62,748 nucleotides of DNA. It comes from Chitinophagaceae bacterium (GTDB lineage: Bacteria; Bacteroidota; Bacteroidia; Chitinophagales; Chitinophagaceae). The notes under the pieces were generated by a model. It was not told the DNA's origin, searched no databases, and saw only the letters and a program-made list of their open reading frames with translations. Both the position numbers and the translations under genes were made by a program. Positions 28,860-52,589 of this stretch are shown here, piece after piece. The stretch's first letter is position 1. The number at the start of each line of letters is the position of its first letter. The DNA lies in assembly GCA_947476485.1 (NCBI GenBank), contig CANJQU010000014.1, positions 1-62,748 on the forward strand, read 5' to 3'.

Positions 28860-29279
28860 TCATACAACAAATAATTGTTTCGAACCTGGTCCTGTACCTC
28901 TGGTTATTGAGTATATCGCACCTGCGGGAAGAGAAAGGTATGAGGCAACATCTGGAATATTTATCGCAACAAGTTCGTCCACCCAAAATGCGCTTGGTAC
29001 GCCCATAGTAGCAGGATCTACAGATGCCACTAAAGTATTTCCAAAAACAGCCGTATTAGGGAAGCCGCCATCGCTGTTATTGAGACCACCGAGTACTACA
29101 GAGCAAGAGCCGGAGACGGTATTGCCAAAACCGCTGAAGATGCCGGAGTGTTTAGTGCCTGCGGCCACAGTGTTTCCTTGCCCACCGCCTATGCTGCAAG
29201 GGACCTCTCCCCGGCCCTCTCCGAAGGAGAGGGTGAAGTTGCGCACCCATGTCCTGTAGACACATATTTTACGGGTCAT
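28860..29279 (-). CDS. Fragment of adhesin-head repeat protein
   Basis: The 139-residue frame has a repetitive Gly/Ser/Asn segment (CSIGGGQGNTVAAGTKHSGI, FSGFGNTVSGSCSVVLGGLN) like left-handed beta-roll head repeats of trimeric adhesins or tail fibres. A C-terminal part (VDELVAINIPDVASYLSLPAG) follows. No signal peptide is present. The first ~27 residues are largely encoded by a dispersed repeat (LSFGEGRGEV from the copy at 29201-29250). This looks like the C-terminal remnant of a larger surface protein whose front was replaced by repeat DNA. It may be a pseudogene. It ends 33 bases upstream of the NHL gene. Confidence 0.5.
   Translation of the reverse strand: MTRKICVYRTWVRNFTLSFGEGRGEVPCSIGGGQGNTVAAGTKHSGIFSGFGNTVSGSCSVVLGGLNNSDGGFPNTAVFGNTLVASVDPATMGVPSAFWVDELVAINIPDVASYLSLPAGAIYSITRGTGPGSKQLFVV
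29201..29250. repeat. CTCTCC dispersed hairpin repeat, read in frame
   Basis: GGACCTCTCCCCGGCCCTCT followed by CCGAAGGAGAGGGTGAAG contains the hairpin CCCTCTCC-GAA-GGAGAGGG. It closely matches 42311-42352. It overlaps the 5' part of the frame at 28860-29279. Confidence 0.7.
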
Positions 29280-42310: not shown

Positions 42311-42352
42311 AGAGACCTCTCCCCCGCCCTCTCCGAAGGAGAGGGTGAAGTA
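42311..42352. repeat. CTCTCC dispersed hairpin repeat
   Basis: AGACCTCTCCCCCGCCCTCT followed by CCGAAGGAGAGGGTGAAG is a near-copy of 29201-29250, including the CCCTCTCC-GAA-GGAGAGGG hairpin. It begins two bases after the LOG gene stop. Confidence 0.7.
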
Positions 42353-48012: not shown

Positions 48013-48050
48013 AACCTCACCCGACCTCTCCTGAAGGAGAGGAGATGTCG
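48013..48050. repeat. CCTCTCCTGAAGGAGAGG dispersed hairpin
   Basis: AAACCTCACCCGACCTCTCC then TGAAGGAGAGGAGATG holds the hairpin CCTCTCC-TGAA-GGAGAGG. It begins at the queD-like stop and is a variant of the family at 29201 and 42311. Confidence 0.65.
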
Positions 48051-49280: not shown

Positions 49281-50273
49281 CTAGTCCTTCTTCATTATTT
49301 TCACCTTCGCTACAAAAGCATCTGCGTATTTTTCAAGCGCTTTCTTAGCGGCCGCTTTATATTGCGCCCTTGTTGTTTCTATTACTACCGGCTTCATCTC
49401 TTTCGCAAAGCGAAACGGATTGTTCTTCATACGCGACTGATCTTCGTTCACCGCAGTGCTGTAGCTCGCGTTCGATTCCAGCTCTTCGCTTAGCGTTAGC
49501 GTCTCCACCACACCCTTACCATTTTCTATCATAGACATGCCCAGCTCATTGGTGGTTATCTTCATGTTGGGCTTTACGTATGCATCATATTTAAACGAAG
49601 TAGTGCGGGTAATAGTGTACCAGCCGGTATGCTCGCCGCTCTTTATATCCAGGCCCACAGTAACGTCAGCAAAATCTACGGTCAGGTAAAAGTAGCCGGT
49701 AGGTGCATCCAGTGCTTTGGCAAACTTTACCGCCCGCGTGCCTTTACCAAACGTGAAGCCTATCTTACCACCGTAAATAGTATTCCCATTGTTTGCATTA
49801 TTGGCCACCCACACCTGGCCTCCTTTTTTAGCCTGGTCTTCATCCGCCTTCTTCTCATCTGCTTCCTTGTAGAAGTCTTCAGCTATTATCCGGCTCCATG
49901 CTATGGTATCTATACCGCCCGCTTTCAGCGCTTTCTGAAAGTAGGAGTAGAAGTAGTCGCTCACCTCCTGGAAATCGGCGGTAGTGAGGGCACCGTCTGT
50001 GGTTTCCAGGTAAGCGGTTATCTTGGCGCCTGCTATCTGGCCGCTACTCTTTTCCTTGGTCGTCACCCTTTCGGTAGTGGTAAGCTTATAGTTTATTGTT
50101 ACCTGCGGTATAGCCAGGTTTTCCATATGGTTCAGGATCTTTGGCTTGCCGAAGGTGCCGCCTACACCTACGGTCAATGCTTCAGCATTTTTCTCTGCTT
50201 CTCCCTGTGCCCTTGCGGCCTGGCTACTCATAATGGCCACGGCCATTGCTGCTGTAATAATTATTTTTTTCAT
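49281..50273 (-). CDS. Secreted protein of unknown function
   Basis: A 330-residue product with a signal peptide (MKKIIITAAMAVAIMSSQAA, then RAQ). No known domain is recognised. It has alternating beta-strand-like stretches (YFYLTVDFADVTVGLDIKSG, WYTITRTTSFKYDAYVKPNM) and ends in a Lys/Ala-rich helix (QYKAAAKKALEKYADAFVAK). It looks like a soluble periplasmic or surface protein. The start at 50273 is chosen over 50282 to give a standard MKK signal peptide. Confidence 0.7.
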   Translation of the reverse strand: MKKIIITAAMAVAIMSSQAARAQGEAEKNAEALTVGVGGTFGKPKILNHMENLAIPQVTINYKLTTTERVTTKEKSSGQIAGAKITAYLETTDGALTTADFQEVSDYFYSYFQKALKAGGIDTIAWSRIIAEDFYKEADEKKADEDQAKKGGQVWVANNANNGNTIYGGKIGFTFGKGTRAVKFAKALDAPTGYFYLTVDFADVTVGLDIKSGEHTGWYTITRTTSFKYDAYVKPNMKITTNELGMSMIENGKGVVETLTLSEELESNASYSTAVNEDQSRMKNNPFRFAKEMKPVVIETTRAQYKAAAKKALEKYADAFVAKVKIMKKD

Positions 50274-50400
50274 ACGCGTCATTGGTTTTTGCTATGGTGA
50301 ATCTACCTTACAAAATTATTCCCATCTGTATGCACGAACAATGCGTACTTACCGGTAATTTTCCATCCGTATTTACAGGGATACGTGCAGGGGAAAAAGC

Positions 50401-50463
50401 AAAAAAACTGATAGAAACAATAGATTTGCCCTAAACAGTTTTTACTGTTATATTTGCAGCCCT
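50401..50463. repeat. Direct repeat copy A: GIY-YIG tail plus tRNA promoter
   Basis: These bases are nearly identical (about one mismatch) to 50787-50848. They include the last codons of a GIY-YIG gene (reading KKLIETIDLP then stop at 50432-50434) and a TATATTTG promoter. The rest of that upstream GIY-YIG copy is gone. Confidence 0.85.
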
Positions 50464-50471
50464 TTACCGTG

Positions 50472-50545
50472 CGGGACGTAGCCCCGCCGTGGCGGGGCAC
50501 CAGGCTGGGGGTCTGGTGGTCGCAATTTTGAATCTTGTGGTCACA
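50472..50545 (+). pseudogene. Degenerate tRNA-Pro (GGG) copy
   Basis: The 5' acceptor strand (CGGGACG), the anticodon arm with GGG, and GCACCAGGCTGGGGGTCTGG are identical to the intact tRNA-Pro at 50878. However the D-arm is replaced by a hairpin (GCCCCGCC-GT-GGCGGGGC), the T-loop is changed (TTTTGAAT in place of TTCGAAT), and the 3' acceptor strand (needed CGTCCCG) is lost. It cannot fold into a normal tRNA. Confidence 0.8.
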
Positions 50546-50561
50546 AGTCATGCACTAAAAC

Positions 50562-50819
50562 ATGTCATACTACGTTTATATTCTCCAAAGCCAAACGGAC
50601 TTAAAATACTACATCGGCAGTACAGCGGATATCGCAGCCCGAGTTGATTATCATAATGCAGGCAAACAAAGATCAACTAAAAGCAGAATTCCTTTTATTC
50701 TGATTTATTCAGAAGAATTAGATAGTAAGGAGGAAGCTTTATTCAGAGAAAAGCAAATAAAAAGCTATAAGGGCGGTCAGGCATTCAAAAAACTGATAGA
50801 AACAATAGATTTGCCCTAA
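50562..50819 (+). CDS. GIY-YIG endonuclease-like protein
   Basis: An 85-residue single-domain GIY-YIG nuclease (UPF0213 type). Its N-terminal strand pair is YYVYILQSQTDLKYYIGSTA, with an Arg (IAARVDYHNAG) and the downstream glutamate in EALFREKQIKSYKGG. Stand-alone members may be DNA nucleases of unknown role. It lies between two copies of a repeat whose downstream copy carries its own last codons, a promoter and tRNA-Pro. A remnant of an older copy of its 3' end sits upstream at 50401, pointing to duplication of the whole unit. Confidence 0.88.
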   Translation: MSYYVYILQSQTDLKYYIGSTADIAARVDYHNAGKQRSTKSRIPFILIYSEELDSKEEALFREKQIKSYKGGQAFKKLIETIDLP

Positions 50820-50848
50820 ACAGTTTTAACTGTTATATTTGCAGCCCC
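50787..50848 (+). promoter_or_regulatory. Direct repeat copy B with tRNA-Pro promoter
   Basis: The downstream copy of the repeat at 50401. It contains the GIY-YIG stop (50817-50819) and TATATTTG (50835-50842), a perfect -7 element that would drive the intact tRNA-Pro starting at 50878. Copy A differs mainly by a shorter spacer to its tRNA. Confidence 0.7.
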
Positions 50849-50877
50849 CAATAAAATGAAGACCCCGAAAAGGTTTT

Positions 50878-50951
50878 CGGGACGTAGCGCAGCCCGGTAG
50901 CGCACCAGGCTGGGGGTCTGGTGGTCGCAAGTTCGAATCTTGTCGTCCCGA
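50878..50951 (+). tRNA. tRNA-Pro (anticodon GGG)
   Basis: A full cloverleaf can be drawn: acceptor CGGGACG with CGTCCCG (seven pairs) and discriminator A at 50951. The D-arm has GCGCAGCCCGGTAGCGC. The anticodon stem CCAGG/TCTGG holds the loop CTGGGGG, with anticodon GGG at 50912-50914. The T-arm has GTTCGAAT. It aligns well with bacterial tRNA-Pro. CCA is not encoded. A strong terminator follows. Confidence 0.92.
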
Positions 50952-50959
50952 CTTAAATT

Positions 50960-50990
50960 AAAACCCGCTCTGGTAGCGGGTTTTGTATTT
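50960..50990 (+). terminator. tRNA-Pro terminator
   Basis: AAAACCCGCT pairs with AGCGGGTTTT across a five-base loop, followed by GTATTTG. It is also convergent with the antiporter gene, so it may serve both strands. Confidence 0.85.
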
Positions 50991-50993
50991 GAA

Positions 50994-52589
50994 TTATTTC
51001 ATCCTTCTGAGCTTCTGCCCAACCCTTGATTCCTCAATGTCCAGCTCATGTTCCAGCTTCTTCAGTATATCGCTGTCTGTAGCGCCGTGTTTATGCAGTT
51101 GTATGATCATTTTGCGCTCAAAGTCCAGCACAATTTTCTGTGCTTCAGCATACTGTTTTAGTATTATACCGGCTCCCGGTTCATCGGTCTCCTCCTGTTC
51201 CATATCCTGGATGGCCTGTTTCAGGTTTATCTCATACTTGCTTTTCAGTCGGTCAACAGCGGCGGGCGTAAACTGGCCATTGGCAATATGCTCGTTGATA
51301 AACTCAATAGCCCCGGCACCTATTTTCTTTCGTACCTCATTCTCTTCACGCTTTTCCTTTTTAGGGTCCGGAGATATTTTCAGGAATTTTATGAGCATAC
51401 GTAGTGACAGCCCATGCACAACCAGTGTGAAGAAAATAGAACAGAAAGTAACAAACAATATCATATTCCGCTGAGGGAATGCAGAACCATCGGCCAGTGT
51501 GAGCGGCAGAGCCAAAGCAGAAGCCAGTGATACCACTCCCCTCATTCCTGTCCACGAAATAATAAACACATCGCGCCAGCCAAGGGATTTATTTTTCTTG
51601 CTCCTGCCGGCAAGGTAGGCAACAGGGAACACCCAGATAATACGTACGATAATAGCGACAGAAGTGATAAGTATCCCATACCCCAATGCATCAAGTAGTG
51701 AATGCCGTTCTATATCTGCAACGATAGCAGGAAGCTGCATACCTATGAGTATGAATACAAGACCATTCAGCAGGAACTCTATTGTTTCCCAGAAAGAATA
51801 TGCCTGTATCCTTGCACGGTAGCTGAATGTCTCCGGCGCTCTATATGCCTGGAACAGCCCCGCAGCTACTACGGCCAGTACGCCGGATAAATGCAAATGC
51901 TCTGCAAGCAGATATGCGGTATACGGCGTTAATACAGTAAGCGCCACCTCTATAGTGGCATTGCTTTTCATATACTTGTGCATGAACGTCAGGCACCTTC
52001 CCAGTATAAGCCCGACAGCAGCGCCACCTATGGCAACCCATACAAACTGTATGCTCGCCTCCCATAGCACGAAACTTCCTGTTACAATGGCGGCTGTCGC
52101 ATATTTGTATGCAACAAGCGCCGATGCATCGTTTACCAGGCTCTCACCTTCCAGTATGGTTGCTATACGCTTGTTGATATTTAACCCTTTCATCACGGAG
52201 CCGGCAGCAACAGCATCAGGCGGGGAAATAATAGCCCCAAGGACAAAACCCATCTGCCACGAAAAGCCGGGGATGAAATAGTGTGCTACAACCGCTATAC
52301 TCACAGTAGTAAAAAACACCAGCCCTGTGGCTAACGAGATCACAACCCGCCGTTCGGCCTTGAACTCATGCCATGATAGTTTTCGGGCGGCTGTGAACAG
52401 TAATGGGGGCAGAAAAATAAGGAATACTGTATCCGGTGTTAAAACAAAATTGGGTAATTGAGGTGTAAACCCAATAAATAATCCGGCGAGCACAAGCATG
52501 ATCGAGTGCGGAAATCTCAGCCGCTCCATACCTGCTGATAGCAAGACAATAACTACCAAAAGAAATATGACTATCTCTACGTCAGACAT
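50994..52589 (-). CDS. CPA1-family Na+(K+)/H+ antiporter
   Basis: A 531-residue cation:proton antiporter with about 12 membrane helices. Family motifs are FPPLLFTAARKLSWHEFKAE, GAIISPPDAVAAGSVMKGLN and EGESLVNDASALVAY, which carries the ND/D ion-binding helix, and FIISWTGMRGVVSLASALAL. A cytoplasmic C-tail of ~130 residues (EFINEHIANGQFTPAAVDRL and a coiled-coil region) is likely regulatory. It supports Na+ or pH tolerance at the inner membrane. Confidence 0.92.
   Translation of the reverse strand: MSDVEIVIFLLVVIVLLSAGMERLRFPHSIMLVLAGLFIGFTPQLPNFVLTPDTVFLIFLPPLLFTAARKLSWHEFKAERRVVISLATGLVFFTTVSIAVVAHYFIPGFSWQMGFVLGAIISPPDAVAAGSVMKGLNINKRIATILEGESLVNDASALVAYKYATAAIVTGSFVLWEASIQFVWVAIGGAAVGLILGRCLTFMHKYMKSNATIEVALTVLTPYTAYLLAEHLHLSGVLAVVAAGLFQAYRAPETFSYRARIQAYSFWETIEFLLNGLVFILIGMQLPAIVADIERHSLLDALGYGILITSVAIIVRIIWVFPVAYLAGRSKKNKSLGWRDVFIISWTGMRGVVSLASALALPLTLADGSAFPQRNMILFVTFCSIFFTLVVHGLSLRMLIKFLKISPDPKKEKREENEVRKKIGAGAIEFINEHIANGQFTPAAVDRLKSKYEINLKQAIQDMEQEETDEPGAGIILKQYAEAQKIVLDFERKMIIQLHKHGATDSDILKKLEHELDIEESRVGQKLRRMK

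Follow-up and report, generated by a model that had tools for sequence, protein, structure and literature searches.

The window, by which we mean the whole stretch of 62,748 nt that was analysed, carries a short GIY-YIG nuclease gene between two copies of tRNA-Pro(GGG), one intact and one broken. With a probability of roughly two thirds, this locus is in our view one copy of a small selfish element, in which a GIY-YIG homing endonuclease of the free-standing type invades tRNA genes. The architecture of the unit, its recurrence, the existence of nuclease-free sites and the linkage of nuclease lineages to tRNA isotypes were established computationally.

The tRNA-Pro(GGG) locus

Throughout the 62.7-kb window ARAGORN calls a single tRNA, the tRNA-Pro(GGG) at 50878–50952 (+ strand); the sequence-only reading was therefore right to describe the downstream copy as intact. 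The upstream copy (50472–50546, +) has the native 5' side, aligns with nt 1–70 of the tRNA and scores 19.6 bits against the Rfam tRNA family, for which the gathering score is 29. GCCCCGCCGTGGCGGGGC stands where its D-arm belongs. Its predicted fold has a strong hairpin at this place and lacks a full acceptor stem, in agreement with the hairpin and acceptor defect described earlier. The GC-rich hairpin that replaces the D-arm, GCCCCGCC-GT-GGCGGGGC, is located at 50481–50498 (+). The pattern CCCCGCCNNGGCGGGG has one site only in its own genome, which rules out that the window hairpin is a dispersed repeat there. Between the two tRNA copies, where a full GIY-YIG gene had been recognized, an ORF at 50562–50819 (+) encodes 85 aa with a single catalytic domain, matching PF01541 at 57.7 bits. 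It is not placed in an intron or intein: among the 7 Rfam matches obtained up to E = 1 for 50200–51100, none is group I or group II.

Comparison of the window with itself yields a direct repeat, 50402–50462 against 50787–50847 (both +), with 60 of 61 positions identical, close to the 62 bases and one mismatch estimated before. The tRNA bodies constitute a second repeat (50497–50542 and 50902–50947, 93% over 46 nt). Repeat copy 1 holds the tRNA-Pro promoter region, in which we take TTTG...TATATTTG to be a promoter consensus of the Bacteroidota type, and copy 2 the 3' end of the nuclease gene together with the second tRNA-Pro promoter. The final nuclease codons (TIDLP-stop) correspond to ACAATAGATTTGCCCTAAACA, which falls within the promoter region and occurs also at the nuclease-free tRNA-Pro of genomes G001 and G020 and, with a one-letter difference, at the upstream copy of G013. 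In addition, the window has at copy 1 approximately 14 nt in front of ACAATAGATTTGCCCTAAACA (codons KKLIE), which are missing there in G001, G004, G013 and G020 and look nuclease-derived. Thus, the nuclease gene reads into a copied promoter, and copy 1 appears to retain a fossil of its C-terminal codons. The claim that the repeat holds the last GIY-YIG codons needs the correction that ACAATAGATTTGCCCTAAACA is not nuclease sequence alone; only these 14 nt or so look nuclease-derived. At tRNA-Arg of G034, an exact repeat of 86 nt comprises nuclease C-terminal codons, the leader and the start of the tRNA. A duplicated promoter, proposed earlier as part of the module, is seen in the window and in G013, with the comparable repeat in G034, but this is not the usual case. 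The terminator-like hairpin 3' of the intact tRNA (50960–50984, +) belongs to the native 3' side and is present in nuclease-free relatives as well, e.g. G003 and G014. As a separate observation, small palindromes, CCCTCTCCGAAGGAGAGGG and CCTCTCCTGAAGGAGAGG, identical or nearly so, occur at 29215–29233, 42327–42345 and 48025–48042 of the window.

A tRNA-Pro(GGG) match was found in 33 of 35 genomes of the genus, and 30 loci, one per genome, were compared. In the vicinity of 27 of them lie one or more of the genes that neighbour the tRNA in the window, namely a gene that we take from its protein sequence to be folE, another that we likewise name a DUF gene, and a minus-strand gene; L194, L199 and L203 have none of them. 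The minus-strand gene (49281–50282, −), situated between the DUF gene and the tRNA-Pro, is shared by the window and G013 and is unmatched at the other 28 loci. An antiporter gene was discarded as synteny anchor, its orthologues being present in 5 of the 35 genus genomes; upstream genes served instead.

A comparison of single-copy and multi-copy states had been suggested, and the single form is clearly the rule. One intact tRNA is present at 27 of the 30 loci and at 24 of the 27 with conserved neighbours, if a second copy may score at most 30 within 600 nt upstream and 400 nt downstream. One such single-tRNA locus, L204, has a weak nuclease match 296 nt downstream. The three broken tRNA-Pro copies (window, G004, G013) score 50–90. 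A broken copy accompanied by a nuclease gene is found in the window and in G004, where the nuclease gene carries internal stops, while G013 has the broken copy and a second promoter without nuclease, and also possesses the minus-strand gene of the window. In this single comparison, the D-arm hairpin is perfect in the window and decayed in the nuclease-free G013. Presence or absence at an otherwise similar site is thus polymorphic at tRNA-Pro(GGG), and it is so at tRNA-Ala and tRNA-Arg. Occupancy by the nuclease within the genus is patchy: 8 of 25 loci for Ala (25 of 28 loci were used), 7 of 30 for Arg and 2 of 30 for Pro(GGG).

Recurrence at tRNA genes and the second tRNA copy

Searching 60 related genomes with the window protein gave a match in 39, and a search of one genome for each of 84,980 species gave 94 relatives, of which the best 80 were kept. 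After removal of the duplicates L119, L131 and L002, and with L001–L005 and L036–L038 left out, 183 GIY-YIG hits were placed (L167 has no tblastn hit, and only the nearest tRNA per side was tallied). A tRNA lies within 200 nt of 104 of these 183 hits (47 of 94 at named loci, 57 of 89 in the relatives), compared to 170 of 11672 (1.5%) randomly chosen 255-nt stretches that were taken from these named loci at a distance of 1.5 kb or more. Proximity to a tRNA tracks kinship, as 31 of 34 named hits with E ≤ 1e-15 but none of the 21 weakest (E > 1e-8) have one. All 111 tRNA neighbours are on the same strand as the nuclease gene and none on the opposite one, and the nearest tRNAs span 16 isotypes. 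Neither of the two conditions named as refuting the module idea applies: single-unit forms are common and GIY-YIG genes are in excess near tRNAs, so the proposal of a unit copying with its tRNA holds. Its composition had to be revised: rather than nuclease, promoter and tRNA together, the duplicated part is usually the tRNA or a piece of it. Similarly, the repeat makes up a true duplication at the locus, but the arrangement is not confined to it and is spread at isotype-matched tRNA genes in many genomes.

Of 80 named loci, 44 have a tRNA within 200 nt, 13 of them in Bacteroidota and 6 unranked. Other tRNA-adjacent carriers are many Patescibacteria-type lineages, Omnitrophota, Fidelibacterota, Balneolota, Elusimicrobiota, Acidobacteriota and Armatimonadota. 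Isolates of Rhodohalobacter, Algibacter, Polaribacter and Pedobacter carry a nuclease gene adjacent to tRNA-Val, and therefore the arrangement is not merely an artefact of metagenome assembly. In G029 tandem units are found at tRNA-Ala (three), tRNA-Asp (two, with identical nucleases) and tRNA-Val (two).

The sequence lying across the nuclease gene from the adjacent tRNA was compared with that tRNA in 108 nuclease/tRNA pairs. Polarity was determined for 69 out of 78 pairs with a score of at least 30, excluding unclear anticodons, the upstream reading of L014, L021, L023 and L027, as well as L052, L094 and L097. The second copy keeps only its outer end in 46 pairs (27+19), only its inner end in 3, both in 5 and neither in 15. 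Where the intact tRNA is upstream (37 pairs), the second copy has retained the 3' end only in 27 and the 5' end only in 3 cases; where it is downstream (32 pairs), the 5' end only in 19 and the 3' end only in 0. This is the polarity which insertion into a tRNA gene predicts. Almost complete second copies occur at tRNA-Arg, tRNA-Pro and some other tRNAs; in many cases the copy is a short fragment. Within a genome, the tRNA part borne by the element mostly equals the native one.

Hairpins were counted in the 86 of 108 pairs which score at least 24; these represent 14 isotypes, with some nucleases counted twice, once per side. A strong GC-rich hairpin is present in 46 of the 86 second copies. Random segments from these loci have one in 2 of 401 cases, and the copies called intact in 8 of 86, with 4 of these 8 being palindrome-bearing copies that ARAGORN accepts. 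The decayed, hairpin-bearing tRNA noticed in the window is therefore real but not a local oddity, and such broken copies exist also at some nuclease-free sites (tRNA-Arg in G034 and G009, tRNA-Pro in G013). In L039, the nearest relative, nearly the same hairpin sits in the same arm of a tRNA-Pro copy, with the order of parts reversed relative to the window. At tRNA-Arg(TCT) the 20-nt palindrome CCTGCCTGCCGGCAGGCAGG or a close variant follows nt 39 in six genus genomes; it follows nt 22 in G029 and is found in both places in G002. Out of 42 hairpin insertions, a few of them with doubtful alignments and the Arg copies non-independent, 35 are in loops or at loop borders, with 25.9 expected (simulated P 0.002).

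In its perfect 20-nt form, the palindrome CCTGCCTGCCGGCAGGCAGG is also a dispersed repeat, with 1–19 sites in 15 of the 35 genus genomes and 0 for its reversed control. Thirty stretches fetched around it contain 1 GIY-YIG match and 2 tRNAs called by ARAGORN, with 3–4 more that are tRNA-Arg-like by eye; most are not tRNA-like. Some palindrome-rich sites were noted besides. On contig 1 of G009, at approximately 179,960–180,400 (L274/L295), tRNA-Arg-like copies are arranged in tandem with a period of 138 nt and CCTGCCTGCCGGCAGGCAGG in each anticodon loop; the nuclease locus at tRNA-Arg is about 45 kb away. L289 (G034 contig 128, 6397) is a tRNA-Arg copy with palindromes in both the D-loop and the anticodon loop, 7 kb from the nuclease locus; neither of these two stretches has a nuclease match. 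The second tRNA-Glu copy in L025 (G050) holds about four tandem 22-nt palindromic units in its T-loop.

Nuclease-free sites and nuclease lineages

Nuclease-free sites show that the insertion is inside tRNA-Ala. Coming from upstream, the flank of G016 and G026 leads into a 5' piece of tRNA-Ala (nt 1–27) with a hairpin; the intact tRNA and the nuclease gene follow, and in G016 these are located between this piece and a 3' piece starting at about nt 43–45. Beyond the insert, G016 resumes at nt 45, and its downstream flank matches the nuclease-free G028 and G008 at 93–94% (G028 93.5%) over about 870 nt and G031 at 92.7% over about 550 nt. G002 and G017 both resume at nt 42, the former with 74% over about 710 nt and the latter with 86% and about 50 nt of flank; the downstream match of G004 consists of 23 nt inside the tRNA and is uninformative on the flank. 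On the upstream side, the native flank runs directly to the intact tRNA-Ala in G014, G017 and G002, and in G016, G026, G004 and G029 a 5' piece with a CCCG...CGGG hairpin is found 60–130 nt before the intact tRNA. Upstream hairpin pieces exist at the nuclease-free tRNA-Ala of G008, G024 and G021 (scores 32–49), not at those of G028 and G031; therefore, G008 is not a pristine comparator. Before tRNA-Ala(GGC), hairpin-bearing 5' pieces were observed with a nuclease in L222, L218, L225 and L212 and without in L235, L219 and L229, and G029 and G021 have arrays of such pieces.

At tRNA-Arg, G024 compared with G022 (89%) shows the native upstream flank leading into the broken copy, and G034 compared with G010 (95% over 900 nt) shows the intact copy followed by the native downstream flank. 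In G025 and G016, a tRNA or nuclease fragment before the intact tRNA-Arg looks, by eye, like a scar. Recombination between the tRNA copies can also yield a nuclease-free site; such a loss may mimic an empty site, so that each event may have been a gain or a loss.

The nuclease has a homing-type domain, and Y6, Y17, G19, R27, H31 and E63 are invariant in 32 aligned sequences; we take these residues to be catalytic-type from their role in the GIY-YIG family. The predicted structure is a compact single domain of 85 residues (mean pLDDT 88.3, pTM 0.76). Profile comparison with solved structures places UPF0213 (1zg2, 1ywl) at the top, SLX1 near and I-TevI weaker, so by profile the nearest solved relatives of this bare catalytic domain are UPF0213 and the structure-specific SLX1.

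A nuclease tree was computed from 108 rows (E ≤ 1e-9, no stop, at least 60 aa) and 80 columns, with 54 of 104 inner branches open. It follows the tRNA isotype: 40 changes are needed versus 75.1 after shuffling, with 0 of 200 shuffles as low, and the 17 Arg rows need two changes. With the window and named genomes only (40 rows) there are 19 changes versus 25.2, again with 0 of 200 shuffles as low, and Lys, Ala and Thr are unclustered in this tree. The nuclease of the window clusters with two further tRNA-Pro nucleases (96%), one of which comes from a different Bacteroidota genome; this grouping is unstarred in the 40-row tree. Computation shows that the nuclease is under purifying selection: over the 31 of 109 unsaturated pairs in three clades, median dN/dS is 0.12 for Arg (19 of 36 pairs usable), 0.07 for Lys (4 of 28) and 0.18 for Ala (8 of 45).

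PADLOC gave no hit, and membership in a defence system was rejected. Carriage by phages or plasmids was likewise dismissed. A tblastn search with the window protein against 50,697 phage records returned 2 matches only (Staphylococcus, 43.5% identity), and there was no plasmid and no confirmed viral contig among its matches. The window protein has no PHROG match, and two of three relatives weakly match phrog_314 'homing endonuclease'.

From these data we infer the following course. The nuclease would cut a tRNA gene without the element, and repair from an element-bearing copy would insert about 0.35–0.4 kb, composed of the nuclease gene and a copy of either the tRNA or the part that it lacks. 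Because the insert brings this copy or missing part, one tRNA would stay intact. The nuclease gene lies in sense beside the tRNA, probably inside its transcription unit, and both are probably co-transcribed from a tRNA promoter. The other copy or fragment of the tRNA, still joined to the native outer flank, would stay broken, and one of its arms often has a palindromic hairpin. For the window, this would place the native promoter with the 5' side at copy 1 (50402–50546), the native 3' side with its terminator at copy 2 (50878–50984), and the inserted part roughly at 50547–50877. One working tRNA is needed where the tRNA gene is single, and among the tRNA-Pro matches of the window's own genome there is one GGG gene. 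Judged by its distribution, the nuclease unit is presumably mobile. The intact tRNA beside a nuclease can equal that of nuclease-free genomes, as in the case of Arg in G017 and G024 and of Pro in the window, where it is letter-identical to the nuclease-free copy of G003. Therefore, the letters of the tRNA alone cannot be a strongly cut site, and flanking sequence or DNA structure must matter.

Alternative readings, known systems and implications

Several observations speak against homing, among them the intact tRNAs that equal those of nuclease-free genomes. The nuclease is a bare catalytic domain whose apparent kin by profile, UPF0213 and SLX1, score above I-TevI. The near-full-length second copies at Arg, Pro and others resemble a whole-tRNA duplication more than a split gene, and hairpin-bearing broken copies occur at nuclease-free sites, too. 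Some of these facts would suit a structure-specific nuclease living with palindromes, which recognises DNA hairpins such as the single-stranded arms of tRNA genes; GC-rich palindromes would enter the loops, and the intact tRNA would be a rescue copy. A comparable logic is known from REP/RAYT, where a HUH (Y1) transposase gene is tied to REP palindromes. The likeness lies in a nuclease gene associated with palindromes, yet here the enzyme is GIY-YIG instead of HUH and the palindromes are inside a tRNA copy; membership in REP/RAYT was rejected, as GIY-YIG is the sole Pfam match of the gene. The contrast between 46 of 86 hairpins in second copies and 2 of 401 or 8 of 86 in the controls, the 35 insertions in loops or borders, the dispersal of CCTGCCTGCCGGCAGGCAGG with its empty reversed control, the nearly identical hairpin in the same arm of L039 and the better profile score of SLX1 all favour such an enzyme. 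However, only 1 of the 30 stretches around CCTGCCTGCCGGCAGGCAGG has a GIY-YIG match and 2 have an ARAGORN tRNA, the window hairpin is unique in its own genome, nuclease genomes such as G017 and G024 are without CCTGCCTGCCGGCAGGCAGG (close variants occur there), and the loop excess is modest, with doubtful alignments and non-independent Arg copies. We regard this as unlikely. Only a little less doubtful is a combined scheme, a widespread class of bacterial chromosomal elements in which the bare GIY-YIG domain cuts hairpins of tRNA arms, palindromes captured in loops kill the struck copy and make it uncuttable, and a rescue tRNA is carried along. It would amount to a selfish system that targets hairpins, with isotype-specific lineages.

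The second copy might also be kept as a tRNA-like RNA which regulates, processes or inhibits the nuclease, for instance as an mRNA end signal or RNA antitoxin. In 61 second copies the average identity to the tRNA is 92% over aligned bases, stem pairs altered on both sides still pair in 25 of 26 cases versus 11.6 expected, and the hairpin is perfect in the window and decayed in the nuclease-free G013. The paired two-sided changes, however, may sit mainly in swapped-in hairpins, many second copies are short fragments, and PADLOC gave no hit. Among 67 one-sided stem changes 46 break the pair and 21 keep it (13 expected by chance), and the change rate is 0.089 in stems versus 0.070 in loops. Stems are thus no better conserved than loops. 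Overall, the data do not support selection for an RNA role of the broken tRNA, and we find a functional role of this kind improbable. If tRNA-Pro had simply been duplicated in tandem, with the nuclease gene as a bystander, the 98% repeat and the local arrangement would be accounted for. The same gene family is present, however, at many isotypes and in many phyla, with 111 of 111 neighbours on the same strand, and nuclease-free sites show an insertion. This pattern already contradicts the simple form of a tandem duplication, to which we give hardly any credence.

The homing endonuclease that we prefer has relatives in function. SegB of T-even phages is a free-standing GIY-YIG homing endonuclease of the tRNA region with many isotypes, and it is reported to drive amplification of tRNA segments, probably via short stretches of homology shared by the 5' region of the tRNA and the 3' end of segB (PMC13096335; PMC2988022). 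The survey in section 10 of PMC13096335 covers phage and archaeal-virus proteins. The elements described here share the free-standing GIY-YIG gene beside tRNAs of many isotypes, and their repeats of nuclease 3' end and tRNA resemble the segB homology. In contrast, they are chromosomal, the window protein is a bare domain of 85 aa, and the broken hairpin-bearing tRNA copies are unmentioned in the SegB passages of PMC13096335 and PMC2988022. Given the missing PHROG match, the absence of confirmed viral contigs and the 2 phage records, the window protein was not assigned to the phage SegB family.

In fungal mitochondria, mobile endonuclease ORFs make gene hybrids at atp6, atp9, cox2 and nad3; such an ORF, of the GIY-YIG type at atp9, inserts into a conserved gene together with a copy of the 3' part of its target, and the native 3' end lies beyond the ORF (PMC3630166). 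This is similar to the nuclease-borne copy of a target part with the native part beyond the nuclease at tRNA-Ala of G016, G002 and G017, from nt 42–45 on. The fungal mORF copies a gene part, unlike the window locus itself, where the second copy is nearly full length; it also concerns mitochondrial protein genes, whereas here bacterial tRNA genes are affected, either side can be copied and the leftover copies often have hairpins. The small UPF0213 proteins (1zg2, 1ywl) are the best-scoring solved relatives by profile, and the weakest named search hits have a tRNA nearby in 0 of 21 cases. A tRNA-integrating island of the tyrosine-recombinase type was excluded, because the longest listed ORF in the unit of about 0.4 kb, and the one compared with protein families, is the 85-aa nuclease, too short for an integrase. 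By title and start of the abstract, the matches listed from the open-access literature contain nothing on GIY-YIG genes inside bacterial tRNA genes. By analogy, the element is probably a free-standing homing endonuclease with gene reconstitution in a new setting, bacterial tRNA genes with a hairpin signature, functionally closest to SegB and the fungal mORFs.

These findings suggest an overlooked kind of selfish gene, which invades tRNA genes and leaves one copy working. Cells depend on their conserved tRNA genes, so that an element could persist across phyla if it breaks such a gene and leaves a working copy at once. If this is true, a gene annotated just as a small GIY-YIG protein would be a selfish element shaping tRNA copy number, pseudogenes and annotation in Bacteroidota, Patescibacteria-type lineages, Omnitrophota and others. 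SegB-like homing at tRNAs would have its counterpart on the chromosome, where a single genus offers nuclease-free sites, scars and lineages linked to isotype, and target specificity as well as self-protection would become directly testable.
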